Below are positions 1-36,018 of a stretch of 64,000 nucleotides of DNA, piece after piece; the stretch's first letter is position 1; each line of letters opens with the position of its first letter. The notes below the pieces were generated by a model. It saw only the letters and a program-made list of their open reading frames with translations. It was not told the origin of the DNA and did not search any database. The position numbers and the translations under genes are program-made. This stretch comes from Blepharisma japonicum. Its lineage: Eukaryota; Ciliophora; Heterotrichea; Heterotrichida; Blepharismidae. The DNA is taken from assembly GCA_949751835.1 (NCBI GenBank), contig CATKHK010000073.1, positions 1-64,000 on the forward strand, in the 5' to 3' direction.

Positions 1-974
1 TAGAATTTTTTCAATTGATTTCACAAGGCCCCGACATTAGACCATTAAATTCACTTCTTGCTGATGCTGGAGATGCAGTATCCTTAGATCTGCAGACTTT
101 TGTAAAGCTTGAGAATGGGACTTTTTGATGGTTTGCTACAACAATTATTATTTTGTGCTGGATATGGGCTATTTTTTGCATTGAAATCTTTTTTCAATTA
201 GATGAAAAATTTAACAATATTTGGTTTTTTAGAAACTTGGGGAATTTAGCCGATTTTTCTATGCCAATTTTAGGGAATTTGTGTTTTATTCCATTTATAT
301 CCATTCTATTAGAAATTTTTGTATGTGATAATTCAATTGGTAATGACTGATCAGATAGCTATCTTGCCGTCGATTGCTATCAGTTCTGCTGACAAGGAGA
401 TCATATCATTTATGCAACTTTATCTGCTCTCTCGTTAATTTGCTATGAGCCTTTTGCAGTGTTCTGCAGACCTCTATGGCAAGAATTTCAGCATGAATTG
501 CATGTAAAGTCATTTCCTCTCTATTTAATGATAAAAACTGTAGTTCAAGTAGTTATTATAGTCTTGAATAAGACACTAAAAAGATCAAGCGATATTGCTC
601 ATGGATTTGTATTTACACTTTTGATGATACTTTATATAGGATGCTTTTATAAGTTCAAAGCTTTCAACTATGGAAGATTCAACTTATGGCACAAGCTAAG
701 TCTTGCTGGAGTTGCTTGAGTTTCATTGCTATCTACCATAAATTTCTTAATTTTAGGGTCCACATTTCCTTGAATATCATTTATTATAGGTGGCTGGACA
801 ATAATAATTTTGATTGGATTTCTTATTCAAAGGAAAAAATATCCAAGTTTACTATATAGAAAGAAAGGAAAGGACACATCAACTCTATTCAAGTTCGCAT
901 TTACGCTTAGCGCGAAATCTCATACTAGTCGCTCAAAAATAGCACCTCAAAAATTAGATTTCTTAAAAAAATAA
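1..974 (+). CDS. PBP1-type receptor, C-terminal membrane part (5' end outside window)
   Basis: The reading frame is open from base 3 to the TAA at 972-974 (323 codons visible) if TGA is Trp. In-frame TGAs at 126, 348, 390, 717 and 771 fall where the intact paralogues downstream also have Trp. What is visible is the multi-pass membrane region of the family: the motif GNLCFIPFISILLEIFVC, the Cys pair around YQFCWQGDH, the block YEPFAVFCRPLWQEFQ, and a basic tail ending in KLDFLKK. The ligand-binding part must lie upstream of the window. It is the first member of a same-strand tandem array, so it probably has the same sensory role as the complete copies. Ligand and partners are unknown. Confidence 0.85.
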
Positions 975-1831
975 TTACTGCTAAGTGCCCTTTCTTTAAT
1001 TGTTAGTTATTTATTAAATTTTGTCTCATTTGCCATTTTATAAAAAATAAAAGCAAGTCGACTATTTATGCCAATATACCTAATATATTTTAAAATAGAT
1101 ATATTATTAATAATGATAGATGTATCACTCATTGCTTATTATAGTATTAATAATGATAAATGTTTCACTCATTGCTTATTAATAATTGAATTTTTATAAT
1201 TTTATCTTTTTAATTATAATAACAACTAATAACTAGCATATCATAATTTTCCAATAATCATTTGCTTTATAATATTTTATGACATAAGATCTCAAATATG
1301 TTTAGATATAGATAATGCTTAAGAGTCATTAAAAACAAAGTCCGTGATCTTCCTCTTATAATGTTCGATATGCTTATAAAGATAATTATATTTGTTTATT
1401 TAAAAATATTTTATAGTTGATACAAAATATAGAATATGAAATAGAAGATTAATTCTTAAAAAGTTTTTCTTGAAAAAGGGTCAATTTAATGGATATTTTC
1501 AAGACAGATCTGCGCAAACTATTCCTAAGTGCTCTTATAGCGGCTTATTAAGGTAATAGAGCTATGGTGGCTTCTATTATGATTTCTCTGCCACTTGCTT
1601 GGCTATTAGCTTTACATGGCAATCCAAATACTGTTTAAATTTTTATTAATTATTGGCTTCGCCATTAAAGCAAGATGAAGCATTCATGAAGCTTTTTTCC
1701 CTTAAAACACTTTAAAATTAATCAAATATAGTTAAGAATAAAAGTTAAAAGAATAGCATAATCTTGAATCGCTTTCTTTACAATTTTTTTAAAATTTTGC
1801 ATTATACAGCTTAAATTAAGAAAATCGATTT
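975..1831. other. AT-rich intergenic region
   Basis: No intact gene is visible. A short protein-like stretch starts at an ATG near 1491 (about 48 codons ending near TAA 1636) but has one TAA inside and matches no family I recognise. A 40-bp-period direct repeat is listed separately. Confidence 0.5.
1105..1181. repeat. Direct repeat, two copies, period 40 bp
   Basis: The 37-bp unit at 1105-1141 recurs at 1145-1181 with two base differences. Both contain tcactcattgcttatta. It lies in AT-rich spacer and probably arose by local slippage or duplication. Confidence 0.75.
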
Positions 1832-2310
1832 ATGCAAAAGGCTTTTCCAAATGTTGATCTTGGTATTAATGGCACTCGCAAACACCTCAGAAGTATTAAT
1901 TGTACATTCAAACTCCTCAAAAAGTATTATTCAAAGCTTAATCAGTGATATCAAAGCAAGCATTTCTGGAGCATCATCAATTGATATTGATTTTTGTGAT
2001 TCTTCATTACCCAAAAAGAAATTTTAAGGCAAGCAAATTTAGTTACCATCTTTGATATAAAAAGTAGCTTAAGCTCTCAATCTGAAATTTCGAAGCTATG
2101 TGAGGAAAATTTTATTATATATTTTCAAGTTTCTGATAGCTTGCATTATCCTCACAAATGAGCTTTTTCTCTTTCTTGTTTTCAGCAAAGCATTAAATGA
2201 AGCCTTGATTTCGAATTTAACTTATTTTAATTGAACTTCTGGTTTAGCAGTAAGCAATGTTGAAAATTATTCAAATTCAAAAAACTGTTTAAATAATTAC
2301 TCAATTATTA
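1832..2310 (+). pseudogene. Decayed 5' fragment of a PBP1-type receptor gene
   Basis: Translation in shifting frames recovers the family's signal peptide and start of the first binding domain (SEVLIVHSNSSKSIIQSL near 1895), then pieces matching the paralogue segment around LNEALISNLTYFNW near 2190. The frame breaks first after about 60 codons (TAA near 2026) and several more times, and there is no downstream binding or membrane region. This is a truncated, frameshifted copy left inside the tandem array. It aligns with the N-terminal 120 or so residues of the genes at 2647 and 7125. Confidence 0.75.
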
Positions 2311-2646
2311 TTAAATTTATTTTTTAAATTATTTTCCTATAATCATTCAATAAGAGAATCAAAATCTATTTAAGATCACTAGAATTCTATTTGAAAGATC
2401 CAAATTCTTTATATTTCAAAATTTGATCATCAAAAATAGCAAAAATTTTTAATTTTCAAATCTAATAAATCTGTGAAAAAATCATTATTAAATTTATTAG
2501 AAATTGAGACTGACAAAATAATATTTAAAAAACGGATTTAAAATTTGCATAGGGCTGAAATATTTTTAGCTAAATTTGCAATCTTTCATATATTTTCATT
2601 CCTCAGACTATCAATTTTTTTTTTATTTCATACTTTAATATTTTAT

Positions 2647-5600
2647 ATGAAGAAAATCAGCAAAAGCACATTCAGTAGTTTTCAGGGACTATTCATACTT
2701 TTGCATTTGGGATTGATTACACTTTCAACTACTTCAGAGGTGTTAATAGTATATTCAAATTTCTCAAAAAGTATAATGACAAGCATAAATGAAGGATTAG
2801 AAGAAAGCATGCCTTCACTTGAAATTTTTTCTTGTGATTTTTCCTTGCTTGCAGAAGAGGTTTTGCTTCGCCCAAATTTATTAGCAGTTTTTGATATAAC
2901 AAATAGCTTAGATTCCCAATTTTCAATCTCAAAATTATGCCAAGACAATTCGATTATTCATTTCTTAGTTTCTGACGACCTGCTTTATCATAATAAATGG
3001 ACTTATTCGCTTTCCAGTTCAAAAAATAGTCTAAATCAGGCGTTTTTTTCAGTTTTAAACTATTTTAATTGAACAGCAGGAACTGCTTTTAGTAACATTG
3101 AAAACTATTTGAACTCTAAAACTATTATAAATGGCTTCTCAGAAAATATTATACTATTTTCTGTTAGCTCAGAAACCTCAATTAAAGATTTGATTTGGAG
3201 AGAAATTATGAAATTAGGCTCATCGTTATTTTATATGTTTACAGATAAAAATAATTCTATAGAGATCCAGGAAGCATTAGCTAAATCAAAAATGCTTATA
3301 AGTGGCACTGGAATTTTACTTGTTGGGGAAAGCAGCTATGATTCACACATTAATGGGGTATTAGCTATTGTTGAAAAAGGCAAAGAAACAGTGAATTCAA
3401 ACGCAAGCTATTTAGAGATTACAATATTAGAATTTATTTCACTCATAAAGAATTGTTCAAATATCGATGATTCTTTACTTTTATTATCCAAAATATGTCC
3501 AGACCATTACTGCACTCATGATTTTTCAATTATAAATATTCAAAATAATCAAAGAAACATTGTAGGAACTATAAAAAATGGAAATTTAGTATTAAATTCT
3601 TCCATAATATTCCCTGGGGACTCATTTGATATCCCTACTTCTCAAAAGAAAGTGCTATATATTAGCGCTAATGACGGGACAGCAAATCCTGGTGGAATGG
3701 CTCCAACTAAAGCAGTTGAGCTTTATAAAAGAGGACTTACATTAGCAATGAAAGATATGAATAATGGGATTAGTATCTTGCAAAACTTCCAGCTTAAACT
3801 CTATGATTTTGACTGTGGTGCAAGCGCTTATGATGCAACTTTCAACTATAACTGCATATATAAAGATAAAAACAAACTAGGATTGGCTCGAATTATGTCT
3901 TTGGCCTCTGTAATTGCTTATGGAGAAATGGCTACATTAGCAAAATTAAATAACACAATTCCATGTGTTGGGTATCTAAACATTGATCCAGGTCTTTCAA
4001 ACGCAACAAAATATCCTTTTTATACAAGAATCATTTTCCCTAGCGATGCTTTATACTCACAAGGCCCATTACTCTTTAAGGTGATGGGATGGGCCAATCT
4101 TGCAATTTTATATGAAAATAGCAGCTTAGGAATCTGAGGGAATTATTATTTCAGCAAAGCATCTGAAAAGCAGAACTTAAAAATCGTTAATACCTTAAGA
4201 GTAATTCCGCCAAACCTTACAAGAGAGCAGATAAGAAATTACACAGATGTTATAAAAGAAATTATTGATGCAAATGTAAGGATGATTGTTTTGATTTTAA
4301 GCCCTCCTTTAATAGACTATGCTGCTGAATTATTTTATGATTTGGGAATGAGAAAAGGAGATGTCGTTTTTTTCTCTCCAAATACAGGTTGGCTTTCTTC
4401 TGTCGCGGCAAAAGATGATTATACATACAAAAGGATAGAAATTGGGATCCCTGTTTTGACACTATTTCAATCAGTCTTTGTAGGAGAAAAAGGGAAAAAG
4501 GTGCATGATAATTTATATGAAATATATGGAAACACAGAGCCGGCTTCATATTCTTGTCTTTATTATGACTCAGCATATTTAATTGGAGCTGCTTTGGATT
4601 GGACTATTAGCCAAGGAAAAGATTATACTGATCCCTATAAACTCCAATCAGCTATTCGGAACGTTAAATTTGTTGGATGCAGTGGAAAAGTTTATATTCA
4701 AAAAAACAGTAATAACGTCCAAATATCAAGCTTTACAATTCAGTCAAATTCTTATAATGCCACAACAGGAATCGTAAAAGTTTTTGATGTTGGGTATTTT
4801 ACACCTACAAGTGCACAATTATTAACAATTAAAACTCCTTTTGTATATCCAGATGGGACTACGAATAAACCAACAGATTTCAGGATCACAAGAACTGACT
4901 GCCCATTTGACGATAGATTAAAGCGAACATTTGGCAAAGGTCGTGCCCTTGCATTTGGGATTTGTTTCTTTGTTGCTGCTGTCACAGGAATTATAACTTT
5001 TATTATTTGGAAAGAATGGTGGAATAAAGAAATCAAAGAACTTACAACAAGAGAAGAAATTTCAGTCGCCGACATGATTGCTGGAGCTACAATTCTGGTT
5101 GAATTTTTCCAATTGCTTTCTCAAGGTCCTGATATTAGACCTTTAAATTCTTTTCTTGCAAAGATTGGAGATGCAGTATCTTTGGATCTGAATGGCTTTA
5201 TAAAGCTTGAAAATGGCGTTTTTTGATGGATTGCGACAACAATTATAGTGTTATGCTTTTTATGAACTATATTTTGTATTGAAATATTTTTAAGATTGGA
5301 TGAAAAGTTCAACCATATTACGTTTTTCAAAACTTTAGGGGTTATTGCTGATCATTCAACACCTATTTTAGGGAATTTATGTTTTATCCCATTTATATCA
5401 ATTTTATTAGATATTTTTGTATGTGACCATTCAATTGGAAATAACTTTATTGACAGTTACCTCTCTATTGATTGTTACCAATTCTGTTGGCAAGGAAGCC
5501 ATATTACCTACGCTGCTTTATCAGCAATTTCACTGCTTTGTTATGAACCTTTTGCTGTATTTTGTAGGCCTCTTTGACAAGAGTTTCAATCTGCTTTACA

Positions 5601-6069
5601 TGTTAAATCATTTCATTTATATTTGATGGTAAAAACAGTTCTTGAGGTGACTTTAATAGTCATGAACAAAACACTGAAAGAATCAAGTAACGTCGCTCAT
5701 GGATTTGTTTTCACTTTTCTGATTTTGCTATATATGGGATTTTTCTTTAAATTTAAAGCTTATAGCTATGGAAGATTCAACTGGTGGCACCAATTGAGCC
5801 TTGTTGGAGTTGCTTGGGTATCTTGCTTGTCAACTATAAATTTCCTTGTTAATGAATCGAGTTTTCCATGGATTTCTTTAATTATAGCTGGGTGGACGAT
5901 AATAATTTTAATAGGTTTTGCTGTTCAAAGAAAGAAGTACCCAAGCTTGTTATATAGGAAAAAGGGGAAAGATACTTCTACCTTATTTAAATTTGCATTT
6001 ACCTTTGGAAAGAAGTCTCAGGCTATGCGCTCAAAAATCGAACCCCAAAAACTGGATTTCTTAAAATAA
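2647..6069 (+). CDS. Tandem-PBP1 multi-pass receptor-like protein (copy 2)
   Basis: One uninterrupted frame of 1140 residues when TGA is Trp (in-frame TGAs at 3070, 4135, 5224, 5263, 5575). ATG 2647 opens a hydrophobic signal peptide, as in the paralogues; upstream codons lack an in-frame ATG. Residues about 28-325 form a first PBP1-like domain, ending with the family-typical order N-x-Q...VG...IFPG...P-S. Residues about 330-745 form a second one, with LSNATKYPFYTRI, LFKVMGWANLAILYEN and a GCSGKVYIQ block matching the late GxxGxxxF region of ANF-receptor domains. Eight or nine hydrophobic segments follow (about 768-1115), then a basic tail. Likely a plasma-membrane sensor for a small molecule (inference). 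The membrane part is not recognisably a class C GPCR 7TM domain, and no kinase, cyclase or other effector is attached. Confidence 0.88.
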
Positions 6070-6211
6070 ATATTTTTAATATTAAACCTATAAAATAATG
6101 AAAATAATTATTTTAAAGTGATTAGGCTTATTAATAAAGCTATTATAAAGCAGACTCTTGTGTATGATATATTTTTAACTAATATTTTTTTTCTATAGCA
6201 AAATCGTTATA

Positions 6212-6950
6212 ATGATTATTACCAAAAAAATCAAGCAATTTTCAAAACTTCAAATTTTATTGTTTTTGATCTTTATTGTGTTTTCAAACTCCTTAGAACT
6301 ATTGATTGTTTATTCAGGTTCTTCAAAAAGCATCAAATCTAGCTAAATTACAGAAATTCAAAGAATTCCATGCCATTCTTCAATTGAATTTTTTTTTGCG
6401 ATATTTCTGAACTAGAAAGAGAAAATATTTATTTACCTAAATTTGCTTGCAGTTTTTGATATAACTAATAGCTTAAATGCTCAATATGAGATCTCTAGGC
6501 TTTGCGAAGACAGTTTTGCTATACATTTTTTGGTTTCAGACAGCCTGCCTTTTGTGAGTAAAAAACAGTTCACTTTCGAGCTCTAAAAAGATTCTAAATA
6601 ATGCTTTTATTTCAGCTCTAAGCTACTTTAATTGAACTGCTGGTGCAGAGTAAGTAATCATGCTTTTAAGCAAATCCCATTGCTATTAAAAGTTATGGGC
6701 TGGAGATATTTATATTTTGTTATTCTGCTCCTTGGCTTATATAATAGTATCCTGTGATTGATGAACTTTCATTATGATATATAACTGCAATACTTTGTTA
6801 ATAAATTAAAAAAGATTTCTTTTGACGAAAGATTCTATGAAAAGTTATACGAATGTATTTCAAGAAGTCATTGATGCAAATTTAAGATTAGTTATGTTAA
6901 TAATGTGTTCAGCTGGGTTAGATTACTCATTCTTTTGAATTAATATTTTT
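6212..6950 (+). pseudogene. Receptor pseudogene with internal deletion and inversion
   Basis: The first 440 bases are a frameshifted copy of the receptor 5' end, from the signal peptide to the LSYFNWTAG region. At about 6653 it jumps to sequence identical over 51 bp to 8526-8576 of the next gene, so the middle of the first domain is deleted. Bases about 6705-6793 are the reverse complement of about 8577-8664 of that gene with a few mismatches. The copy then resumes forward orientation to about 6930. The inversion, deletion and frameshifts make it non-functional. High identity to the neighbour suggests a fairly recent duplication or gene conversion. Confidence 0.85.
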
Positions 6951-7124
6951 AATTCAAAATATAAATTTAAAAGTAAGTTTAGGCCAGTTATAGCTCCATG
7001 TATAATAGTTATTATAATTTTACTAATAGGATTCATTTATAAAGCTCACAAATTAAGGTTCACTATTTATCATTGCATTTATCACAACTATTATTCTTTT
7101 TTTTTATTTTTACGATTAACTGTA

Positions 7125-10100
7125 ATGTTTTTTACTAGAATATTATTTAGCAGCTTTAAAGGAATTTTCCTAATTTTTATGACTGCCATCGCATTCTCAA
7201 CTTGCTCAGAAGTTTTGATTGTTTTCTCAAATTTCTCAAAGATCATTATACCAAGTTTTGTGGCTGAAATTGATTCAAATATTTCAGGAATCTCCTCAAT
7301 TGAAGTGTCCTATTGCAATTTTTCAGTCCTTGAAACAGAAATCTCACAAAGACCCAATTTGCTTGCAATTTTTGATATAACAAACAACTTAAACATAGAA
7401 TTTGAGATCTCCAATATATGTAAGGACAATTTACTTATACATTTTTTGGTTTCTGACAGCTTGCCTCACAAAAATAAATGAACGTTTTCACTCTCTAGTT
7501 CAAAAGAAAAATTAAATGAAGCTTTCATTTCGATTTTAAGTTTCTTTAATTGGACTACTGGCGTGGCAGTGAGTAGTGTTAAGGAATACTCAAATTCTCA
7601 AACTATGCTAAATAGTTATTCAGAAAAAATTGAACTATTTTCAGCAAGCTCTGAAAGTTTTATTCAAGAGCTTGTCCGAAAAGAATGATTGAGAATAGGA
7701 TCATCTATGTTTTATTTATTTACAGACAAAAATATTTCAACTGATATTCAGCAAGCGTTGATCAATTCAAAAATACTAGTCAATGGAACTGGAATTTTGC
7801 TTATAGGTGAAAGTAGCTATGAATCTACAAGTGAAGGAGCACTTGCACTTGTTGAAAAAGATAGAGAATCAATTGATTCTAATGAAAAATACTTATCTGC
7901 AGTTGTTTCTCAAATGATTTATCTTTTGAGCAATACTTCAAATTTAGATGACTCTTTAAATTTACTATCAAAAAAATGCGAAAATCACTATTGTGTGAAC
8001 GATTTTTCCCTTCTCAATATACAGAAAACTCAAAGAAAAATAGTTGGGTCTATAATTGATGGGAATTTAGTATTAAATAATTTTTCTATTGTTTTTCCCG
8101 GGAATTCTATGGAAGTGCCAAAGTCTCAAAAAAAGATTTTATATTTCAGCGCTAATGATGGAATTGCAAATCCAGGTTCTCCACCACTTCAAGCAGTCAC
8201 TCTTTATAAAAGAGGCTTTTCATTGGCATTAAAAGATATAAATGACGGAATCGATATACTTCAAAATTTTGAGCTAAGACTCAATGATTTTGATTGTGGG
8301 TCAACTGTGTATAATGCAACTTTTTGTTATAACTGCATTAATAAAGATAAAAATCGCTTAGGACTGGCACACATTGTTTCTGTCACTTCTGCTATGGCTT
8401 ATGGAGAAATTGCAACAATGGCAAAATTAAATATAACAATTCCTCTTATTGGAGCTGTCAACATTGATCCAGGGCTTTCAAATTCAACTAAATATCCATT
8501 TTATACAAGAGTAAGCGTGCCAAGTAATCATGCTTTTAAGCAAATCCCATTGCTATTAAAAGTTATGGGCTGGGAAAGTATTGCAATTATATATCAAAAT
8601 GAAAGTTCATCAATCACAGGATACTATTATATAAGCCAAGGAGCAGAAGAACAAAATATAAATATTGTTAACAAATTAAAAACTATTCCTTTTTCCTTGA
8701 CGAGAGATTCTATAAAAAATTATACGAATGTATTTCAAGAAGTCATTGATACAAATGTAAGATTGGTTATGCTAATAATGTCGACAACTGCACTAGATTA
8801 CTCAGTGGAATTATTTTATGATTTAGGAATGAGAAAAGGTGATATCTTTATTTTAAATGCAAATCCTTCGTGACTCTCTTCAGTTGGGAATAAAGATGAT
8901 TATACCTTTAAAAGAGTAGAGATTGCAATTCCATCATTAACTGTATTCCAATCACTTTTTGTAGGTGAAAAAGGGAAAAAAGTCCACGAAGATCTCTATA
9001 AAGCATATGGAAACCTTGAGCCTGCCTCATGAGCTTGCTTATACTATGATTCCATATATTTAGTAGGATCAGCATTAGATTGAGCTATAAATCAGGGTAA
9101 TGACTATACTAATCCTTCAATCCTCCGCTCAGCAATTAGAAATGTGAAATTCTCTGGATGCACTGGGAATGTATACATACAAAAAAATAGTAATGATCCT
9201 GTTTGGTCAAGCTTTACCATCCAGTCAAATTCTTATAATACTACAACAGGGATAATAAAAATTTTGGATATTGGGCTTTTTACCCCTACAAAATCACAAA
9301 TATTATCTATAAAAACTCCTTTTATATATGCAGACGGAACTACAAATAAACCTACAGATTTTAGGATTACAAGGACTAATTGCCCGTTTGATGATATTTT
9401 AAGACAAACATTTATGAAAGGCCAAGCGTTAGTGTTTGGGATTTGCTTCTTTATAGCGATTGTAACAGCAGTTATCACATTTTTTATTTGAAAAATGTGG
9501 TGGAATATCGAAGTCATGGAACTTATTAAAAGAGAAGAAATTTCAGTTTCAGATATAATTGTTGGAGCTACTATTATTGTGGAATTTTTTCAAATTCTTT
9601 CTATGGGTCCAGATATACAACCTCTTAGTTCATTCCTTGCTGATATTGGAGATGCAATGTCTTTAGATCTCAAAAGTTTCATCAATCTCAAAAACGGTAA
9701 TTTTTGGTGGATCGCTACATTAGTTATTATTTTGTGTTTTTTATGAGCTATTTTTTGTATTGAAATTTTATTACATTTAGATGAAAAATTTAATCACATT
9801 TGATTTTTTAGAATTTTGGGGATTCTAGCTGATTTCTCCATGCCAATTTTAGGAAATTTATGTTTTATTCCATTCATATCAATTCTTTTGGAAATATTTG
9901 TTTGTGATCATTCTATTGGAAATAATTTTACAGACAGCTATCTTTCAATGGATTGCTATCAGTTCTGCTGACAAGGTGATCACATTATCTATGCTGTTTT
10001 ATCTGCAATTTCATTGATTTGCTACGAACCCTTTGCTGTATTTTGTAGGCCCCTTTGGCAAGAATTCCAGCATTCACTCCACGTAAAATCGATTCCTCTG

Positions 10101-10562
10101 TATTTGATGGTAAAAACAGTTGTTCAAGTAATTCTTATAGTCATGAACAAAACCCTGAAGAGGTTAAGTAATATCTTGCATGGGTTTGTATTCACATTTT
10201 TAATATTGGCATACATGGCATTTTTCTTAAGATTTAAAGCTTACAACTACGGGCGATTCAACTGATGGCATAGATTAAGTCTCCTTGGAGTTGCATGAGT
10301 GTCTTGCTTATGCACTATAAATTTCTTGATTGAAGGATCTAAAGTTCCATGGGTTGCATTAATTTTAGGGGGATGGACAGCTTTAATCTTGATAGGATTA
10401 ATCGTCCAAAAGAAAAAATATCCAAGTTTATTATTTAGAAGAGAAAAGGACACTTCAACTTTATTCAAATTTGCATTTACTTTTGGAAAGAAATCAAGAT
10501 CTCTTCATTCAAAAATTGAGCCACAAAAATTAGACCTCTTTAAGCAAATATCTTATAAATAA
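7125..10562 (+). CDS. Tandem-PBP1 multi-pass receptor-like protein (copy 3)
   Basis: An open frame of 1145 residues from ATG 7125 to TAA 10560 when TGA is Trp; about eleven in-frame TGAs are used, including 7479, 7686, 8871, 9489, 9744, 10263 and 10296. Domain order is as in the array's other copies: signal peptide with SEVLIVFSNFS, first PBP1 domain ending near IVFPGNSMEVPKSQ, second PBP1 domain with LSNSTKYPFYTRV and LLKVMGWESIAIIYQN, the GCTGNVYIQ block, YADGTTNKPTDFRI, then the multi-pass region and a tail with KKKYPSLLFR. It is the apparent parent of the pseudogene at 6.2-6.9 kb. Its heavy TGA use contrasts with conserved housekeeping genes in this window. Function as a chemosensor is inferred from the ectodomain. 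Confidence 0.88.
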
Positions 10563-11249
10563 TTAAAATCAATAAATATATTAAAAACAATTTTATGGTT
10601 CTTGGTAAATATAAAATATATTAAATATTAGATTAGTATAGCTGTTTGAAGGATCAAATAAATTCAAAATTGGACATATTTTTAAATATCAATCAATTGG
10701 TGTTTCATATAAAACATCTCAGCTCTGAAAAATGACAAAATCACCCAATATGATGCGCTTCTAACTATCCAATATGGTAAGGAATTCAAATGGTATAAAA
10801 TTGTTGTGAGATATAATGGTGATAGTCCTAGGATAAAAATCAAGAACATTCTATGAGATCTCAGCTATTATAAAGTAATATAGGAAAGAATATTAATATT
10901 CAATAAATACATTTATTTATTGTCTATATGGCAATCTCATGATATTAGCGAAATCTATAATTAATACTGCTATCGATTCTCCATTTATTAGTTGAAGATT
11001 TTTGATTCGCTTTTAGTATAATCACTGAGGATTTTTATATATTCCCATTTAACTTTTATTTATATTAAAATGTTTCATAATATAAAATTTCAGCTATACG
11101 CATAAGTGAAAAACAATTTTTTTGAGATTCTGTTCAAGCAGTTCAATTATTAAAATTATAATTAAATAATAATTCTTTAATCCTTAAAACTATTTTCGTG
11201 CCAAGTAAATCTAAAGAAAGTTTATATATCCATCCTAATCTTAGATAAA
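10563..11249. other. Intergenic region with an unassigned open stretch
   Basis: Mostly AT-rich spacer. On the + strand a frame stays open from about 10710 to 10881 (about 56 codons with one TGA), encoding a stretch such as QYDALLTIQYGKEFKWYK. It lacks a start codon and matches nothing I recognise; it may be a gene relic. Confidence 0.35.
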
Positions 11250-11640
11250 ATTATTGAGAAATCCTCTGTTGACGTCCAAAGGACACTTTATCTCAGAAAT
11301 TGTTTTGCTCCACAAGATTTTAAGCGTATCTTATACTATTTCGCTCTTTTCAGATAAGGGCATGCATTTATCCCTGAAGCAAGTCGAGGTGGGCCACTGT
11401 ACTGCGTGTCTGAGCCGCTTAACCAAGCAGCATTAGGCCTGTTGAACTTTTTGTGCGATAGAAAAAAGTGGATTCAGAATTTTCTAAAAGAGTTGAATGA
11501 AGTGCTGACGTTATCAATATTTTTCAAGACTACATGCTGGATGCGGAAAATCAGATTCTGTTAATCCCAGGATTGACTTTATGCCTCAGAAGTTCCTCAA
11601 GCTCGTTCATGCTCTGTAAAAAAGGTTTGGTAACATCATT
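11250..11640 (+). pseudogene. Unidentified protein-coding relic
   Basis: This stretch is less AT-rich than its surroundings. One + frame from about 11272 is open over some 95 codons except for a single TAA, with protein-like text such as AFIPEASRGGPLYCVSEP and ALGLLNFLCDRKKW. Sensible-looking sequence then continues in another frame (RIDFMPQKFLKLVHAL near 11575). That pattern suggests a decayed coding sequence with at least two breaks. I do not recognise the family; it does not resemble the receptors on either side. Confidence 0.4.
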
Positions 11641-11953
11641 TTTTATTTATATAAGAGTCTATATGTCTACTGCATAGCTATTAGATTTTTAGTAATATTT
11701 TGTATAATTATTAAATTGATCGTCAAGAGAATCTAATTTCATATAAGCTAAATCAAATTCATTTTTGCTCTTAAATTAAATCTCGAAAATAAAAGCCTGA
11801 GCTGATAAAGAATGAAGTTTAATTGTATTAAAAATTATTAATTTACCTAAGTTTATAAATGTTAAAATAGATTTTCTAGTTATTATGAACAAATTATTTG
11901 AATAATGATAATTTAACTTAATTTTTTTATAAAGGGCTGACTATCATAAAATT

Positions 11954-14900
11954 ATGGCACTGACTAAAAGGAAACTGATGAACGAAACTTTGGTTATTTC
12001 CAGATTTTTATTCTTTTTCTCTATATTTTTTATTTCGAAATCTTCAGAAGTGTTGATTATATATTCGAACTCAACAAAAATCTCTATTTCAGACTTTATT
12101 TTTGAAATACAACTGAGCACTTCAGCACTGTCATCAATAGAAATTGCAGCTTGTGATTTTTCAACTGCAGAAGAAGAGATTTCTAATCGCCCAAGCTTAA
12201 CTGCAGTTTTTGACATTTCAAATGACTTAAGCTTCCAGTTCCAAATTGCAAAGTTGTGCGAAAATAATCTCATTGTGCATTTTCTATATACTGATTGCTT
12301 ACCTTATGAAAATAAGTGAACTTTTTCACTATCAAGTTCAAAACAAAGTTTAAACAGAGCTGTAATTAGCACATTAACTTATCTTAATTGAACTGATGGG
12401 ATTGCAATCACAGCTGTACAACAATTTTCAAATTTGAGACATCTTTTCCACAACTTTTTTAAGGATATTGAAGTATTTTCAGTCAGTTCTGAAACTTTTA
12501 TTAAAGATTTTATTGGGATAGAAATGAAAAAATTAGGGTCGTCTCTTTTTTACCTGTATATTGACAAAGAAATGTCTTTACAGATTCAAGAGTATTTAGT
12601 TAATTCAAAACAGCTTGGAGATGGAACAGGAATTTTGCTTATTAAAGAAAGTAGCTATCAGTCAAGTGTGGAAGGTACATTAGGTCTTGTAGAAAAAGGA
12701 AAAGAATTTGTGGAATCAGAAGACAGTTTTTTATCCTCAACAATTTCAGAAATGATAATTTCTTTAAACAATGTCTCAGATACCTATATTTTAAAATTTT
12801 TAGAAGAAAAATGCCCAAATCATTATTGTATTAATAATTTTTCCGTTATAAATATTCAAGGAAAACAAAGAAAAATTGTTGGGTCTATTGTAGAAGGAAA
12901 TTTTAAAATACTTTCCTCTATAGTATTCCCAGGAAATTCTAGCAAAACCCCGATTTCACAGAAAAAAGTATTATATTTCAGCGCAAGCGATGGCACAACT
13001 GATCCGGGTGGAGTTCCATATGCTTCGGTCGCTGTTTTTGCTAGAGGTCTAACCTTAGCAGTAAAAGACATAAATAGTGGTCAAAATATTTTAGAAAATT
13101 TCCAATTACAACTTAACCATTTTGACTGCGGTGCGAGCGTCTATAATGCAGCATTCGCTTTCAATTGCTTTGAAAAAGGCAAAGACAAAGTAGGTTTAGC
13201 TCATATCACAGCTCCTATGACAGCTACAGCCTTTGGAGCTATGATATCATTAGAGAAATTAAATATAACTGTTCCCTATATCGGAGCTGTCAATAGTGGT
13301 CCCGAGCTATCCAATACAACAGCTTATCCTTATTATTCTCGAATAAGTTTACCAAGCTCCTGGGCATATACTCAAATCCCAATAATACTAAAAGTCATGG
13401 GCTGGCAAAGCATAGCAATTTTATATCAAAATGACATATCAGGCTCAGCGGCCTTTTATTATCTTAACCAAACTTGTGCAAAGCAAAATATTAAAATTGT
13501 AAATGAACATAGAGGAATTCCTCCACTTCTAGACAGAGTAGGGCTTAAAAATTATACTAGTGCTATTAAGGAAGTGGTTGATTCAAATGTAAGATTCGTT
13601 ACATTAGTATTTAACCCTCCTGAAGTAAACTATATTGCTGAAATTTTTTATGATTTAGGAATGAGGAGAGGCGATGTGCTATTTTATTCGACCTATCCTG
13701 GGTGACTGACGACTGTAGCTACACAAGATGAATTTTTGTATAAAAGAGTAGAAATTGCGATCCCTATGGTAATTATTTTCCAGTCACTTTTTGTTGGGGA
13801 GATTGGGAAGAAAGTGCATGATGATCTTTATAAAGCATATGGAAATACAGAGCCTGCAACTTATGCATGTCTTTATTATGATGCTGGGATGCTAATAGGG
13901 AATGCGATTGATTGGACGATTAATCATGGCACTGATTATACAGATTCGGATGTCCTGAATGCAGCTGTAAGGGATGTAAGGTTTACTGGATGCACTGGGA
14001 GTATGAGTATCCAAAAAGGAAGCAATGATAGGCAGTTTAGTAGCTTTACAATACAGTCAAATTCTTATAACTTCACGTCTGGAGCATTAAAAACGTTTAT
14101 TGTAGGGTATTTTACACCTACAGGATCTACAATTTTGAAAATTGAAACACCATTTGTGTATGCGGATGGAACTACAAATAAACCAAGCGATTTTAGAATT
14201 ACAAGGACTAATTGCCCATTTGATGATAAATTAAAGCGAACATTTGGTAAAGGCCGAGCTTTGGTTTTTGGGATTTGTTTCTTTATTGCTGCTGTAACAG
14301 CAGTTGTAACATTCTTTATTTGGAAAAAATGATGGAATAGAAAAGTTGATCCACTCACCAAAACTGAAGAAATTTCACTTGAAGATTTTATTGTTGGCGT
14401 CACTATAGGGGTCGAATTTTTCCAGCTGCTTTCACAGGGTCCTGATATTCGGCCTCTAAATGCTTTTCTTGCAGATGTCGGCGATGCCGTATCCTTAGAT
14501 TTGGAAAGCTTTGCAAAAATGGAAAACGGAGTTTTTTGGTGGATTGCTACAATAATAATTATTTTATGCGGGGTTTGGGTTATTTTCTGTTTAGAAATCT
14601 TCTTTCAATTAGATGAAAAGTTAAACAATATCTGGTTTTTTAGAGCTTTAGGATTTCTAGCTGACAACTCTATGCCAATTTTAGGGAATTTATGCTTTAT
14701 CCCATTTATATCCATTCTTTTAGAAATTTTTGTATGTGATCATTCTATTGGAAATAGCTTCACAGATAGCTACTTAAATAAGGATTGTTATCAATTCTGC
14801 TGAAAAGGGGACCACATTATTTATGTTATCTTATCAGCATTTTCTTTATTTTTCTATGAACCTTTAGCAGTCTTCTGTCGACCTCTTTGGCAGGAACTGC

Positions 14901-15388
14901 AGTCAAATCTGCATGTTAAATCAATCCCATTATGCTTGATGGTAAAAACTGTGATACAGGTGATGCTAATAGTTATGAATAAAACACTTAAAAGGTCAAG
15001 TGATATTGCCCATGGGTTTGTATTTACAATCTTAATACTGATATATGCAGGATTTGTATGGAGATTTAAAGCTTTTAACTATGGAAGATTCAACTGATGG
15101 CAGCAATTAAGCCTTATTGGGGTTGCTTGAGTATCATTTTTGTCAACCATAAATTTCCTTGTAGGAGGGATGTCATTTCCATGGATTTCATTGATTTTAT
15201 GTGGATGGGCAATAGTGGTACTGACAGGACTGGCTGTCCAAAAGAAAAAATATCCAAGCTTATTGTTCAGGAAAAAAGGAAAAGACACTTCAACTTTATT
15301 CAAATTTGCTTTTACCTTCGGAAGACAATCAAAAATGCACCAGTCAAAAATAGAACCTCATAAGCTTGATCTTTTTGAGTCTAAATAA
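11954..15388 (+). CDS. Tandem-PBP1 multi-pass receptor-like protein (copy 4)
   Basis: An open frame of 1144 residues from ATG 11954 to TAA 15386 with TGA as Trp (among others 12317, 13703, 14330, 14801). ATG 11954 opens a leader whose hydrophobic core SRFLFFFSIFF precedes the conserved SEVLIIYSNS. The first PBP1 domain ends near IVFPGNSSKTPISQKK and the second contains LSNTTAYPYYSRI, ILKVMGWQSIAILYQN and GCTGSMSIQ. The multi-pass region carries GNLCFIPFISILLEIFVC and YEPLAVFCRPLWQELQ, then a basic tail. It lies 1.4 kb downstream of copy 3, beyond a spacer with gene relics, on the same strand. The ligand is unknown. Confidence 0.88.
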
Positions 15389-16224
15389 TGGTTTATTATA
15401 GATAAGTAATGTAAAATAGAATTATAAAAAATATTTGGGGCAATTTTTTTAAATAAAGAAAATATGATATATGTGAATTAGAAAAATAATTAGTGATAAA
15501 TAGATTTCAAATGAGGATTGATTCATATCTTATTTTTCGTGTTTTCTTGTTGCAGAAGCCATGATTATTTTTGAAAACTAGGTAATTAATGTATGCATTA
15601 GTAAATAATTTTTTCTCATTGAATAAACTTTGTGCTAATCTATAAGTAAATGAGATAAGCGGTTCTGTTCTCCGCAATTAATTTTGTGCATTTTCATCAT
15701 ATAATATTTAAAGACTAATCATTTAACTTCAAAATAGTAAAACTGTTCTCTTGGGTCGAGCTATATTTATTATCGCTTATTTGAATAGACTAACTACTTA
15801 AGCTATTTGCTGTCTTAAATATCATAAATTTTAGATTAAATTTCCTAATTTATTATGAAGATTAGATCAAAAAACTTCAAAATTTATTAAAATTTTGTTT
15901 TATCAAAAATTTTTAGTTTAATTTCCTAAACTTCAATTATTAGCTTGCTTTATTCTGTTCTTTCAATAAATCTCTGCAATAATCAATTTTCTCTTTTACA
16001 ATTAAGCACAAAATAAAAAAGTTAATTTCTATTAGATAATTCAATATTATTTTATTAAATCTATAATATTTTACTTAGAAGAAAATCCTTGCACTATAAA
16101 GAATTAAAATAAGCACTATTAATGAATAAGATTGTATCAATATAACTTTGAGCAAAACTCACAAAATAGTGTATTTATGTTTAATGTAATGGTATTATTA
16201 TAAGTTTCTTTTTTATAAAACCAA
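15389..16224. other. AT-rich intergenic region
   Basis: About 0.8 kb of AT-rich spacer between receptor copies 4 and 5. I see no gene, relic or clear repeat on either strand. Confidence 0.6.
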
Positions 16225-19200
16225 ATGGCAGGCATTTTTTCAAAATACTCAAATTCATTCCATATGAATTTTCTAAGACTTATTTTTTTTAGTTTCCAAT
16301 TTTTTGCAAATTCTTTTGAAATACTTCTTGTCTATGATTACGAAGATGCTACTAGTATTTCAAGTTTGACAGAACAAATAGCAATGAAAATCTCTTTAAC
16401 AGATCAAATTGACATTTCTACTTGCCAATACCAAAAACTTGAACTTTGCTTATCTCTCCACTCGAATCTCCAAGCAATTTTCGACATTTCCGACAATTCT
16501 CAAGCACAATATGAGCTCGATATTTTTTGCAAAGAAAACTCTATCGTCCATATTGTAAAAAATAGTAAAATAATATATCACAGCGAATGGACCTTCTCAA
16601 TATCTAGTTCTTGAGAAGATACAAAAAACTCATTTATTTCTTTGCTCCATTATTTTAATTGGACTGAAGGAGTTTATTTTAAAGATCCTAAAGACACTGA
16701 TATAACCGAAGAATTAAAAAATAATTCGATATTAATAAATTCCCTTAGTGTTGAGTACTTATCGTCGATAGAGGGGTTTTTAGCAATTGAGGTAATGAGT
16801 ATGGGCAAAATGATTTATTTTGTTTTTACAAATGCACATGCTTCAGGAGAAATTCAAGAATCTTTAGTAAATGCAAAACTTCTAGGAAATGGAACTGCCA
16901 TATTATTTGTAAAAGAAAGTTCATATAGAGCTTCAATTGATGGGGCACTGATAATGACTGAAAAAGGTCAAGAAAATTCAGAGTCAGATGATGACTATTT
17001 AAGTACAGCTTTTGCAAATTTACTATCCTTAATAGAGCCTAACACAACAAATTCTTTCCAATTTAGAGATATTTTAATGGAAAAATGCCCAATGGATTTT
17101 TGTGCCACAGAATTTTCTCTTATAAATATTCATGAAGGGCATAAGAATTTAGTTGGAAGTATAAAAAATAATTATATTACTATTACTTCCACAATTTTTT
17201 TCCCCGGAAATTCAACAATAATTCCAGTTTCTAAGAAAAAAGTAATAAATTTGAGCATCAGTGATGGCTCTACTAACCCAAGTTCTTCTCCTGCAACGTC
17301 TAACCCTACAAATATAAGGGGTGCTCATTTAGCTATTGAAATGATAAATGAAGGAAACGACATTCTTTCAAATTTTGAGGTCTCCATGTTTAGTTATGAT
17401 TGCGGAGTCACAGTTTATAATGCAAATTTCTCTATCAAATGCTATAGTCCAAATATTGATAAAATAGGTTATGGTCATGTGGCTGCATATGGTTCTAACG
17501 TCGCTGTAGGAGATTTTCAAACTTTTAAAGCTTTAAATATCACTGTTCCATGTGTTGGCGCTGGCCCATCAGATGCTGCACTATCAAATTCAACTAATTT
17601 TCCTTATTATGCAAGGGTAAATCTAGCTAGCTCATATTTATATAATCAAATTCCTCTTTATTTAAAAGCTTCAGGATGGAAAAAAATTGCTGTGATCTAT
17701 CAAGATGATGCGAATTTTGGCAAATCAGCTTATTATTATATTAACCAATCTGCAGCAAATCAAGGACTGGAAATTGTAAACAATCCTAATTTGAGGGCAA
17801 TCCCAATGGGATTAAATAGAACGCAGCTTAAAAATTACACTAATGTAATTCAAGCTGTTATAAACTCAGGTGCTAGGCTTATAATAGCTGCTTTCGCTCC
17901 ACCTTTTGCACTATATATTACTGAGATGTTTTATGATTTGGGAATGAGAAAAGGGGATGTGATATTTTTCGCTGTCTACAGTGGATTTGTTACAGATATT
18001 GCTGCAAAAGATGACTATACTTATAAAAGATTAGAAGTCGCAGTTCCAATGCTAAGGATCTACCAAGAACTTTGAGTAGGAGAAAAAGGCATTCAAGTAT
18101 ACAATCAATTAGTGAAAAAATACAAAGAAGCTATAGCTTATAATTGCCCTTATTATGATACCTCTTACTTAATTGCTTATAGTATCAATTGGATGATTAC
18201 TAAGGGAGCTGATTATACTGACCCTGCAAAGCTCCAAAAATCAATTAGATCTGTAAAATTTTCAGGCTGCACTGGAAATGTCTATATCCAGCCAGGAAGT
18301 AATGACAGAATTGTAAACGGCTTAATAATTGACTCTAATTCCTATAATAATGATACAGGGATTTCTGTTTATACCACAGCTTTACTTAAACCCTTTGGCC
18401 CTACAATTTTGACTATTAAGCAACCTCTAATCTATGCTGACGGCACCACAGATAAACCTTCTGACCTTAGAGTAACAACTACAGATTGCCCATTTCCCAA
18501 CAAAGAAATAAGGACCTTTGTAAAAGGAAGAATCCTGGCCTTTGCTATTTCTTTTACTATTGCAGGAATTATGTGCATTTTTACATTCTTGATTTGAAAA
18601 AGATGGTGAAATATAAAAGTTGAAGAATTAAAAACTCAGGCAGAAATTTCTATACAGGACTTTTTGGTTGGAGCTACAATTGGGATAGAATTTTTTCAGC
18701 TTATTAGCATGGGGCCTGATATTAGACCTATGAGCACTTTTATAGCTGATATAGGAGATATGTTATCTCTAGATTTAGGAAGCTTTTTTAAGCTACAGAG
18801 AGGGGTTTTCTGGTGAGTTCTGGATGGCGTTTTAGCTGCGTCTCTGGTTTGGATAATTCTTTGCATTGTGATTTTATTCCAGCTTGATGAAAAATATTCA
18901 AGAATTTGGATTTTTAGAAAGCTTGGCTGGCTTGGTGATAATTTAATGCCTATCCTAGGAAATCTTTGCTTTATTCCTTTTATGTCTATTCTTTTAGATG
19001 TATTTGTGTGTGACGAGTCAATTGGAGACTCTTTTAGTGATAGTTTTCTAAATAAAGATTGCTATCAGTTTTGCTGGACTGGGGATCATATAATCTACTC
19101 AGTTTTATCAGTTTTGGCCATTCTCTCATACGAACCTCTAGCTGTATATTGTAGGCCTCTTTGGCAAGAGTTGCAGAGCAACTTGCATGTAATTTCAATA

Positions 19201-19665
19201 CCCTTGTATTTGATGGTGAAAACTGCTGTTCAAATACTTTTGATCGTGTTAAATAAAACAGTAAAAAGGGCTGATGAGGTTGCTCATGGCTTTTTATTCG
19301 TTGGGCTACTTATTTTATCTATAGCTTTTATTTTGAAATTTAAAGCTTATAATTACCCACGGTATACTTTTTGGCAAATTTTAAGTTTGGCTGGAGTAGC
19401 TTGAATGGCCTTGCTAGGCACAATATTTTTTATTTCTCGGGATAGGAGTTTTCCTTGGATCGCGCTAATTATAGGTGGCTTGCTTTTTATTTTAATTTAT
19501 GGGCTAATCAGACAGAAGAAAGGATATCCAAGTTTACTATATAGAAATAAAACACGAGATACAAGTACGCTATTTAGATTTGCTTTTACCTTTGGAAAGA
19601 GCACTAAAATTGGATCAAAAGTTTTAGCTTTTGTGAGCAATAAATCATCATCTTTGCGTAATTAG
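16225..19665 (+). CDS. Tandem-PBP1 multi-pass receptor-like protein (copy 5, divergent)
   Basis: An open frame of 1146 residues from ATG 16225 to TAG 19663 with about six TGA-Trp codons (for example 16612, 18073, 18595, 19402). The layout matches the rest of the array: signal peptide (FFSFQFFANSFEILLVYDY), first PBP1 domain ending near IFFPGNSTIIPVSKKK, second with LSNSTNFPYYARV, YLKASGWKKIAVIYQDD and GCTGNVYIQPGSNDR, then the multi-pass region and KKGYPSLLYRNK tail. It is the most divergent complete copy: the N-terminal domain starts differently, the Ser/Thr-rich loop SSSPATSNPTNIRG is unique, and the tail ends in VSNKSSSLRN rather than the usual KLDL-type end. It closes the same-strand array. 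It may have a ligand specificity of its own, which is inference. Confidence 0.87.
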
Positions 19666-20215: not shown

Positions 20216-22831
20216 ATGATATTACATTTCCTGCTCTTTCTAATTCAAAAATCTCTCAGCTTATGTGAAACCTCCCATTACTTTACTGAATGCGACACCA
20301 GCGATACAAGATCAGCAATATTTTATCAAGAAGACTGCAATTCTACTTTATTATCCCCAATTCTCAATCTTCCATGTAATAAAGTATGCGAAGCAGGATA
20401 TAAACTTGACATCATAAATCAAACTTTAGCATGCTCTCCATGTCCTGCTGGCTCTTATAGCACTGGAGGTGGAATCCGATATGGCGAAGACGGATCTGAT
20501 TGGAATTCATCTTATAGATATTTGAAAAGGAATTGCTGGATTCTAATGGGACTCGACTGAATAAAAAATGATAGATGCTCAAGCTGGAGTACCGAAAACG
20601 GAATTCTCATCTCTGGCAAACCAGATATTGCTAATTTCTTTGAAGACGAACTTATTTTATCTTCCCGACTTGTCACAGAAGGAGTTCTCACTTATAAATA
20701 CAGAAAAATCACCCAAAAATCTAACGGATTTATAAATGGAGACTGATTTGTCTATCTAAACGGTGAGCAAATACAATCAAACAGTCATTTAGGTGAAAAC
20801 AGCTGGGTTGTTAAAAATTTTACCATTCCTGCAGGATCTCATGAAATTGCTTTCGCTTATCAAGCATATTTTCAGCATTTATCTGATGATTTGCATGCAG
20901 AAATTTCCTTTATTGAGCTCACAGGCCTTGAATATGCTTCAACTTCATGTGAAAAATGCTTAAAAGGATCAAGCACTGAAGGATCATCATCATGCAATAT
21001 TTGCGACTATAACACATATTGGAATGGGGCTTCTTGTGAAGATTGCCCTCCTGATAAATATTCTCTAAAAGGCTCAGTAGGGAATAATTCTTGCTTAGCA
21101 AGGCAGCCTTGTGGATTTGAAGATATTATCAGCAATTTTACAGAGTGTGAAAATGGGAAGAGGACCAAAAAATACTACTGAAAGCAGCCAATTCTATGCA
21201 ATTATACAGCAGCAAGCTTACCGAGTGAAATAGATGGATTGCTTTGTGAAGAATGCCCAATTGGATATCATCAACAACCAATCTCAAACAATTTAAATAC
21301 TACGAAATGCTATCCTTGTAATTTAGGATATTATATGACCCAAAACTTAACTTGTGAAGAATGCGAAATTGGAGAAATTTCTAATAATATTTTATTGATT
21401 GAACGATGGGACACCCTTCCAGATGGTTTTAAAACTAAATGCATAACCTCATCTGGAGAAGGATGTCTTACAAGCTCTGGATGAATTGCAAATGAAACTT
21501 ATATAACGACTGGAACTTCTCTTGAGCGTTTATCAGAAGTTTCATTATCTAAATTTATTAATATCACGAACTTGACTGGAAAAATTGATTATTTTTATGT
21601 TAGTCTTGATATACAAGGGTTATTTAATTTTTATATTAATGGGATTTTGATCTCTTCAAATCAAGTCAGTGGGAGATATAAAGAATCATATGATTTATTG
21701 TCTGGGGGAAATGAGCTTGAATGGAGATATAAAACTCACAAAATGACAGGTGGAGAAATAAGGATTTATTACATAAAAATTGAAGGGAGTGATGAAGGAG
21801 CTTCTGTGGAGTGCAGCAAGTGCCCTGATGGCTTTATAAGTTCTAACAATCATACAACCTGCAGCCCGTGCTCATCTGGATTTTCTTCAAATTCTGACAA
21901 TTCTGAATGCATTAAATGCGATAACGACTATTATAGCTATTCATCTGGCCAAACATGCCAAAAATGCCCTGCAAGTACTTATTCAAATACTAATAAAACT
22001 GCATGCCTTGGAAATGACTTTTTAATCCTCCCTACAAAATCATTTTATATGAGAAATCTTACAGGAATTTCAAATATTGAGCAAACATATAGTGATGGTC
22101 TATGCAGCCGTGACAGTTTAAAGCTTTACTGTTATCAGACTTTTTATGGGCCAATTCCTGGCAATAATTCAGAGCTTTACATTTCAGTTTTAAACCCTTC
22201 AGTTTTGTCTCTCCCTGACTACGAATATTTCTACCAGCCTTCATTAGGCTATGCATTTACATTAGTTACTCTTGATTCCCCATTAGCAAAAAATAATAGT
22301 GTAAATACTTGCTATAAGGAAAATACAGCTATTTTTAATGCAGGGAGAAATATAGAAAATATCACAGAGACGGCTTATGGGTTTGATGTTCAGTACAGCC
22401 AAGGGGACATTTGTAACGAAAATGGGGATAGGTTTAGTGTTTTTATAGAGTTTGTGTGTAATAAAAGGGAAGGAGGAGGCTGGCCAATGCTAGTTAGTAG
22501 AGGAGATTGCAGCTGGAATTTTAGATGGAAATCGAGATGGGGATGCAAAATTTGCAGCGATGAAGAGATGATTGTGGTAAAAACTATGTGTGTAAATGGA
22601 AAAAGGACGATTGAAAAAATGGAAGGAAAAAACTGCATAATTCCTTCAGATTATCAAATTGTGACGTCAGGAGAAGACTGCTCATTGTCTAAAGATATTT
22701 TGTATACACTTCCAGTGCTTATTGGTATAGGCACTATAATGCTGCTATTAATGGCTATAGCTTTGCTTACATATTATTGCTATCGGTTTAAATCTAGATA
22801 CCAAAGACTAATTGACGCTAGGGAAATTTAA
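20216..22831 (+). CDS. ELAPOR/EIG121-like cysteine-rich single-pass membrane protein
   Basis: An open frame of 871 residues with TGA as Trp (in-frame TGAs at 20558, 21179 and 21482 among others). The protein has an N-terminal signal peptide (about residues 1-18) and a large Cys-rich ectodomain with GCC2/GCC3-like modules (CSPCPAGSYSTGGGIRYG, CPDGFISSNNHTTCSPC, CPASTYSNTNKTAC). One transmembrane helix lies at about 829-855, followed by a short basic cytosolic end. The order of the Cys-rich blocks, the GGIRYGEDGSDW segment and the late CSWNFRWKSRWGCKICSDEE region match the ELAPOR1/EIG121 (KIAA1324) family, which acts in secretory and endolysosomal membranes of animals. Its role in ciliates is unknown. 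The stretches between modules carry many Asn-x-Ser/Thr sites, as expected for a secreted or lumenal domain. Confidence 0.82.
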
Positions 22832-35500: not shown

Positions 35501-36018
35501 TCTATGCTTTGGGAATAATTCAATAAAGATTCTTTTGAATTTAAATATGTTTCAGCATTACTGATTGCAATTCCATCAGTTCAATTAAAAAATGTCAAAA
35601 TTGTTACTAAAGCATCGTTTAAGCTTTCTTTAGAGCTTGACAAAGAAAAAGATCAGCCGTTTTGATAAGCCAGGTTATTAGAAACCACAAAATGGACTAT
35701 AAAATTTTGCTCACATATAACTGCAATTTCGAACTCGGTATTAAGGCTATGGGTAATATCAAAAATTGCAAGCAAATTTGGGTGTATTGATATATCTTCT
35801 TTGAAAAAAGAGAAATTACATGACATAATTTCCACCGGGCTTTGACCAAGTATGTTGTTCTGAATATCTGAGACTAAGCTTGGGATAATATCTCTCGTTA
35901 AATCTGAGTAGACAATTAGTACTTCTGAGGAGAAAGATTGGGAAGCAAAGTTGAAAATCAATGAGAATTTGAATAGTTTTATAAGGATGTTGGCTAGAAC
36001 CACAAAGTTGTATTTCAT
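32587..36018 (-). CDS. Tandem-PBP1 multi-pass receptor-like protein (copy 6, minus strand)
   Basis: An open frame of 1143 residues from ATG 36018 to TAG 32587, with only three TGA-Trp codons (35653, 35581, 33643). The domain order equals the array at 1-19.7 kb: leader with FSSEVLIVYSDL, first PBP1 domain ending near IFPGNSPNIPISQKKI, second with FSNKTNFPFFSRI, FKVMGWSSLALIYQND and GCTGSMYIQ, then the multi-pass region (GNLCFIPFISILLEVFVC, YEPFAVFCRPLWQEFQ) and tail QSLDLLKSK. It is separated from the array by about 13 kb of unrelated genes and inverted, so it moved or was duplicated independently. It is the cleanest copy in the window, with no relic beside it. Confidence 0.88.

Follow-up and report, generated by a model that had tools for sequence, protein, structure and literature searches.

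Introduction

Venus-flytrap (PBP1) ectodomains are found in class C G protein-coupled receptors (GPCRs), in ionotropic glutamate receptors and in receptor guanylyl cyclases. Here we analysed a 64,000-nucleotide stretch of Blepharisma japonicum DNA (C73:1-64000, positions 1 to 64,000 of contig C73, hereafter the window), which carries an array of genes for putative receptors with two consecutive PBP1 domains (domains 1 and 2) and a membrane region of nine hydrophobic segments, together with the relatives of these genes in the same genome. Like this family, the class C GPCRs (GABA-B, T1R, CaSR and mGluR) join a multi-helix membrane part to a flytrap ectodomain, which in their case is homologous to domain 2, and they include large tandem chemoreceptor families, e.g. 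the vertebrate V2R receptors. They have, however, one flytrap, seven helices and a 7tm_3 domain; the family described here has two flytraps and nine segments, and 7tm_3 was not matched in the proteins scanned. In the ionotropic glutamate receptors (NMDA GluN1 and plant GLR3.4) the amino-terminal PBP1 domain is homologous to domains 1 and 2, but neither a Lig_chan pore nor a PBP2 ligand-binding domain was matched in the Blepharisma proteins scanned; the genome has three Lig_chan places, none of which is at a listed place of the family. The ANF-receptor guanylyl cyclases share the ANF_receptor ectodomain, but have one helix where the family has many membrane segments, and carry kinase-like and cyclase domains, which were not matched in the family proteins scanned. 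PF06011 TRP-like proteins of the same genome (contigs C139, C110 and C15) likewise consist of a large ectodomain and then a multi-helix membrane part; their ectodomain differs in being cysteine-rich and their membrane part is without detectable relation to that of the family, as far as a thin profile can tell.

To our knowledge, ciliates respond to many chemicals while few of their receptor genes are known. The accessible part of a GPCR survey of 27 ciliates, in which Blepharisma is unmentioned, reported no family C member (PMC9960496), and in the genome paper on Blepharisma no word of the main text starts with 'receptor' (PMC9942806). In the open-access literature, searched by titles and the starts of abstracts, the family was not found among the matches listed; most subscription papers lie outside this scope. 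The flytrap ectodomain is of a known kind, and its double arrangement with this membrane part appears to be undescribed in the literature searched.

Layout of the putative receptors and their PBP1 domains

All sequences were translated with TGA as Trp (code 4); the accessible part of the genome paper states this code for B. stoltei (PMC9942806), which agrees with Blepharisma. The complete gene at 11954-15388 serves as the reference for residue numbering, and its features are as follows (TM, transmembrane segment; ATD, amino-terminal domain):

11954-15388, forward strand: complete receptor gene, 1144 amino acids
11954-12046, forward strand: hydrophobic N-terminus, probable signal peptide, residues 1-31 (hydropathy peak at 15-31 only)
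12047-12964, forward strand: PBP1 domain 1, about residues 32-337 (family profile matches the GluN1 ATD)
12965-14224, forward strand: PBP1 domain 2, about residues 338-757 (Pfam ANF_receptor, E 2e-26; profile search)
14243-15241, forward strand: membrane region with nine predicted hydrophobic segments, about residues 764-1096 (averaged hydropathy; without a family match)
14729-14809, forward strand: TM4-5 loop, three cysteines in 41/41 sequences (41-sequence alignment)
14855-14896, forward strand: YEP-x-AV-x-CRPLWQE block, after TM5

Forty-two family loci, chosen by us and not at random, were first fetched from the genome. Thirty-six of the 42 are one uninterrupted frame of 1120-1293 amino acids, stop to stop, with the same layout: a hydrophobic N-terminus, two consecutive PBP1 domains and nine hydrophobic segments. 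The other six (L004, L011, L012, L015, L018 and L030) are split between frames, through tiny introns, errors or decay, and were excluded from the alignment of 41 sequences, which holds the 36 intact loci and the five complete genes of the window.

An earlier sequence-only reading of the window had assigned a signal peptide and two PBP1 domains to each protein, with no attached kinase or cyclase. Profile searches bore out the two domains. A profile of domain 1 (20 sequences) matched the ATD of the NMDA receptor GluN1 with an E-value of 6.8e-15 (positions 72-313 of 325), and a profile of domain 2 (20 sequences) had plant GLR3.4 as its best match in PDB (E 4.9e-25), with further matches to the GABA-B1, taste, calcium-sensing and mGlu receptors. 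The two domains are also related to each other (hhalign probability 96.7% over 212 columns), so an old internal duplication is possible. Pfam alone sees mainly domain 2: ANF_receptor was found in the 3 full-length window proteins scanned, of 5 complete (E 1.6e-19 to 2e-26), with two stretches in only one window protein, and in 18 of 18 diverse members. As judged by these profile matches, domains 1 and 2 are both homologous to PBP1. Neither a kinase nor a cyclase domain was matched by Pfam at E≤1 in 4 window proteins and the 18 members, in agreement with the earlier reading. The signal peptide that it assigned is probable, given the hydrophobic N-terminus.

The membrane region

Averaging the hydropathy of the 41 sequences gave nine groups of peaks, which are predictions and lie within the eight or nine membrane segments read earlier from the window. 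On the predicted inside, the mean net charge was +6.2 for the tail, +1.1 for the TM1-2 loop, +0.9 for TM5-6 and +2.8 for TM7-8; on the predicted outside it was -1.2 for TM2-3, -2.7 for TM4-5 and -0.2 for TM8-9. We infer from these charges, which most loops fit, that the N-terminus lies outside and the C-terminus inside. Several polar residues are kept inside the predicted helices: Q824 and K998 in 41/41 sequences, D811 and N912 in 40/41, Q1002 in 38/41 and E821 in 37/41.

The absence of a match to class C GPCRs or any named family, which the sequence-only reading had claimed for this region, was confirmed in Pfam, NCBIfam and PDB profile searches. Against the PDB, a profile of the region (20 sequences) had no match up to an E-value of 10, the Pfam scan of the 4 window proteins and 18 members gave no credible match, and NCBIfam returned only below-cut-off or stray matches in the 18 members. 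The one other membrane-like Pfam match, to Oxidored_q2 in 2 of the 18 members (best E 0.0016), was put down to chance. Searches of the membrane profile in two collections of prokaryotic and viral sequence, genome_contigs (2 pattern stretches) and viral_contigs (32), yielded none that was confirmed; these collections are uninformative on other ciliates. By eye, the region is reminiscent of the membrane module of cysteine-rich receptors in algae and oomycetes, in which F-x-C, D-C and H-x-x-Y are comparably spaced; this possible resemblance is no more than a lead. The best reading of these comparisons is that the ectodomain resembles that of class C GPCRs and the membrane part does not.

The array on contig C73

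Apart from the reference gene, the window contains the following copies and remnants of the family:

3-974, forward strand: partial copy, membrane region and tail only, in an open frame truncated at the contig start
1836-2399, forward strand: decayed relic of the N-terminus and domain 1, with in-frame stops and frame changes (tblastn E down to 1.4e-17; direct repeats)
2647-6069, forward strand: complete receptor gene, first ATG at 2647; the open frame extends upstream to 2545
6212-6929, forward strand: decayed relic, pieces of domains 1 and 2, containing a small inverted piece at 6705-6797
7125-10562, forward strand: complete receptor gene, start taken as the ATG at 7125; the frame extends further upstream
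16225-19665, forward strand: complete receptor gene, diverging more than any other array member
32587-36018, reverse strand: sixth copy, complete

The code-4 frames agree with the five same-strand receptor genes, one of them partial, that had been claimed within 1-19665; the sixth copy, which lies beyond that range, and the two relics had been missed. The copy at 3-974 is truncated because the window starts at base 1 of the contig. Each complete copy is a single frame of about 1140 amino acids. Where direct repeats cover the array genes, these are in register, 4.3-5.1 kb apart from start to start. The inverted fragment at 6705-6797 within the second relic has 87% protein identity to the copy at 7125-10562.

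Two conserved blocks had been proposed for the membrane region. YEP-x-AV-x-CRPLWQE is present in 6/6 window copies, whereas GNLCFIPFISILL is exact in only 5/6, the gene at 16225-19665 reading GNLCFIPFMSILL instead. The PBP1 landmarks named earlier are present in 5 of the 5 complete copies after small corrections: the domain 1 motif needs one more x (FPG-x-S-x-x-x-P), and position 3 of the domain 2 motif is T or S (GC[TS]G-x-x-x-IQ). Our reading of the array is that of a birth-and-death cluster.

Size, distribution and turnover of the family

A membrane-region query of the same genome scored 150 of 274 candidates, and two further membrane queries (112 of 265 and 111 of 269 scored) added 4 places by our own reading, giving at least 154 membrane-region places on 46 contigs. 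Clusters of two or more, with neighbours counted within 15 kb, contain 120 of the 154, and 87 of 94 neighbouring pairs are on the same strand. A search for ANF_receptor gave 106 matches among 267 candidates, of which 33 had no listed membrane match within 3.5 kb downstream; the single one of these that was read (C113, L042) does bear a divergent membrane part. The total is at least 187 places (154 membrane and 33 further ANF_receptor places), decayed copies included, and all of these counts are lower bounds. True stops (TAA or TAG) lay within the match in 5 of the 150 rows of the first membrane query. The membrane part recurs far beyond chance.

In a tree of domain 2 and the membrane part (41 rows), all five complete window genes (four from the array, and the sixth copy) belong to a single supported clade, whose 8 rows also include copies from C30, C12 and C11. 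Three copies, from C133, C52 and C59, sit separately at the end of a long branch; the placement of such branches may be wrong, as the tree program cautions. By similarity, a copy from C173 groups with these three.

Selection was tested on six duplicate pairs. The whole-gene ratio of nonsynonymous to synonymous change (dN/dS) was 0.14-0.22 in 6/6 pairs, and these pairs are under purifying selection. By part, it was 0.14-0.35 for domain 1, 0.11-0.22 for domain 2 and 0.08-0.19 for the membrane part, domain 1 exceeding the membrane part in 6/6 pairs and domain 2 in 5/6. The ratios of the two window pairs are rough, because their synonymous sites are close to saturated. Across the 41 sequences, median pairwise identity was 26% for domain 1, 32% for domain 2 and 49% for the membrane part. 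Domain 1 varies more than the membrane part, as would be expected if a variable sensor sat on a conserved transducer.

The two neighbours L005 and L049 on C2 share 63-74% of their DNA in the first 300 codons and 87-98% across the next 360, a mosaic that points to gene conversion or to an exchange of domain 1. In the youngest pair (C145), synonymous divergence (dS) is 0.09 and protein identity 96%. Together with the relics, this pair shows ongoing turnover, and the description of the family as still expanding stands.

The putative ligand site

Position 423, which aligns with the pocket serine of T1R2a and with the second serine in GPQSS of GLR3.4, is S or T in 35/41 sequences. Alignment with GABA-B1 shifts the pocket column by one, with S246 of GABA-B1 at 422, where S or T occurs in 13/41. 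Position 424 (S or T in 13/41) was at first considered by us as the equivalent of mGluR1 S165 and was rejected when the later alignment put the pocket serine at 423 or 422. The site like T188, in mGluR1 numbering, is S or T in 21/41.

The pocket stretch reads SYGATSANL in the C133 copy, SYGATGANL in C52 and SYGSTWTNL in C59, near SFGAT of GLR3.4 in 3/3. The C133 copy matches Pfam ANF_receptor at E 9.9e-60, far better than the three window copies scanned. Carboxylate or amino-acid ligands are plausible for the C133, C52 and C59 group, and varied ligands are plausible for the expanded clades.

Proposed mechanism and alternatives

On balance the family is probably a large, lineage-expanded set of cell-surface chemoreceptors; this estimate concerns the chemoreceptor role and excludes the channel step discussed below. 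We infer the surface location, ligand class and chemosensory role from the features described above. The N-terminal signal would export the protein, the two flytraps would face outside the cell, and the nine-helix membrane domain would anchor the protein with the C-terminus inside. Domain 2, which adjoins the membrane, would most likely close on a small ligand that is amino-acid-like or otherwise a carboxylate; this closure would move the membrane domain, the putative transducer. Domain 1, the most variable part, may tune specificity, pairing or affinity.

As to the output, it is a speculative suggestion, made by elimination and somewhat short of an even prospect, that the membrane domain forms or gates an ion channel. 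Coupling to a G protein is decidedly unlikely by comparison; the channel is favoured because the proteins have no attached enzyme domain and the genome showed no recognisable G-alpha. A G-alpha search of the genome gave 19 matches, each of them confined to positions 159-264 of the 333 in the profile, and no canonical G-alpha was recognised among them; 17 of the 19 lie within open frames of 153-242 amino acids that are small-GTPase-like. Two rows, on C42, reach the cut-off only together with neighbours. In the C42 region, the one region read, two frames of 182 amino acids are ARF-like (ARF by eye) and cover one of the two rows, the other lying outside any frame of at least 150 amino acids.

Several observations weigh against this account. 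AlphaFold models had low confidence, with a mean pLDDT of 37.7 for the full-length reference copy with 6 window sequences and of 39.0 for the membrane region alone with window sequences. One loop, TM6-7, departs from the predicted topology, with a net charge of +2.2 on the predicted outside; the TM3-4 loop carries no net charge. N-glycosylation sites are more frequent than in shuffled sequences both in the ectodomain (33/41) and in the membrane region (32/41), and are therefore uninformative on topology. Amino-acid pocket residues are kept only partly, in a count that depends on the alignment (35/41 or 13/41). The channel step is reached by elimination, and the G-alpha search that contributes to it went exon by exon, so that an intron-broken or strongly diverged G-alpha may have been missed.

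It is possible, though we hold it tentatively and as rather doubtful, that the family is a new receptor class, in which a nine-helix transducer without relation to GPCRs, cyclases or glutamate-receptor channels carries tandem flytraps and which, in well over 150 copies, forms the chemosensory repertoire of a single-celled organism. Domain 1 would then be a specificity module that can be exchanged, and the membrane part a transducer or ligand-gated channel of a new kind. The strongest alternative, a serious one if not quite an even prospect, is that the membrane part is a very diverged known fold and the receptor a new mix of known parts. The TRP-like PF06011 type and the TMEM16/OSCA/TMC type are examples of candidate folds. 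The nine-helix layout with conserved polar residues in the helices is in its favour, as is the presence in the same genome of PF06011-type proteins with cysteine-rich ectodomains. The failure of the region to match any PDB chain or credible Pfam family counts against it, and homology to PF06011 itself was not supported: the membrane profile (41 sequences) gave an hhalign probability of 0.5% against three PF06011-type genes, a thin template (Neff 1.65), and none of the 35 PF06011 places in the genome coincides with a listed place of the family.

The proteins might instead serve recognition or adhesion at the surface (of self, prey or mates) or nutrient uptake, and not chemical signalling, which we consider unlikely. 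Surface-antigen and adhesion genes also typically form large, clustered, fast-turning families. Bacterial PBP1 domains serve uptake, and in NCBIfam one member has a weak match, below the cut-off, to a branched-chain amino acid substrate-binding protein. Pfam and NCBIfam, however, matched no transporter family, and the membrane part is the most conserved region, which fits a transducer better than a mere anchor.

That these are diverged class C GPCRs, with the flytrap ectodomain on a much altered seven-helix core and signalling through G proteins, is improbable: class C ectodomains come next after GLR3.4 among the PDB matches of domain 2, but 7tm_3 was not matched at E≤1 in the 18 members and 4 window proteins, the three 7tm_3 places of the genome lie elsewhere, there are nine segments and two flytraps where class C has seven and one, and no canonical G-alpha was recognised. 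The sequence-only reading had also linked the array, as a speculation, to gamone 2, an amino acid derivative, 3-(2'-formylamino-5'-hydroxybenzoyl) lactate, which according to the accessible part of the source is common to Blepharisma species (PMC10892320). A PBP1 domain could in principle bind such a molecule, but nothing found supports the link or marks the C73 array among at least 154-187 candidate places, so many relatives giving any single copy a low prior, and the receptor of a gamone common to the species would be expected among conserved, not fast-duplicating, copies; that one or more array copies are the gamone 2 receptor is extremely improbable.

Neighbouring and other genes

Adjoining the array, 20216-22831 (forward strand) encodes a cysteine-rich protein of 871 amino acids, apparently with one membrane helix at the C-terminus; Pfam matches it to Ephrin_rec_like (26.7 bits, cut-off 23.1). 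Further along the window, 37835-40204 (forward strand) encodes a calcineurin-like phosphatase domain preceded by Kelch repeats, as in the plant BSU1 type. The gene at 56371-57573 (forward strand) encodes a protein with the motif DIDWEYP, which is typical of GH18 chitinases, and 60658-61941 (forward strand) encodes an Ion_trans_2 potassium-channel-like protein with the filter motif TIGYGDFFP.

Elsewhere in the genome, the separate cysteine-rich family with a PF06011 TRP-like membrane part is represented by L043 (408-3599, reverse strand, C139), L044 (236-3538, reverse strand, C110) and L045 (25-3294, forward strand, C15), with several places on C139 and C110. Lig_chan matches above the cut-off at C68:231067-231798 and C27:421495-421779 (both reverse strand) mark possible ionotropic glutamate receptors. 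A 379-amino-acid frame on C5 (L046, 2-1138, reverse strand) matches 7tm_3 with 38.5 bits (cut-off 33.5), and its C-terminal part is RGS-like by eye. This 7tm_3 match contrasts with the survey cited above, which in its accessible part reported no family C GPCR in ciliates (PMC9960496).

Implications

More than 150 clustered flytrap receptors would, if the reading as chemoreceptors is true, amount to an animal-scale chemoreceptor repertoire inside one cell. Such a repertoire raises the question of how many copies are expressed at once per cell, and it yields a concrete list of candidates for the sensing of mating signals, food and prey. A membrane part that proved to be a new transducer would represent a new way of converting flytrap closure to a signal.

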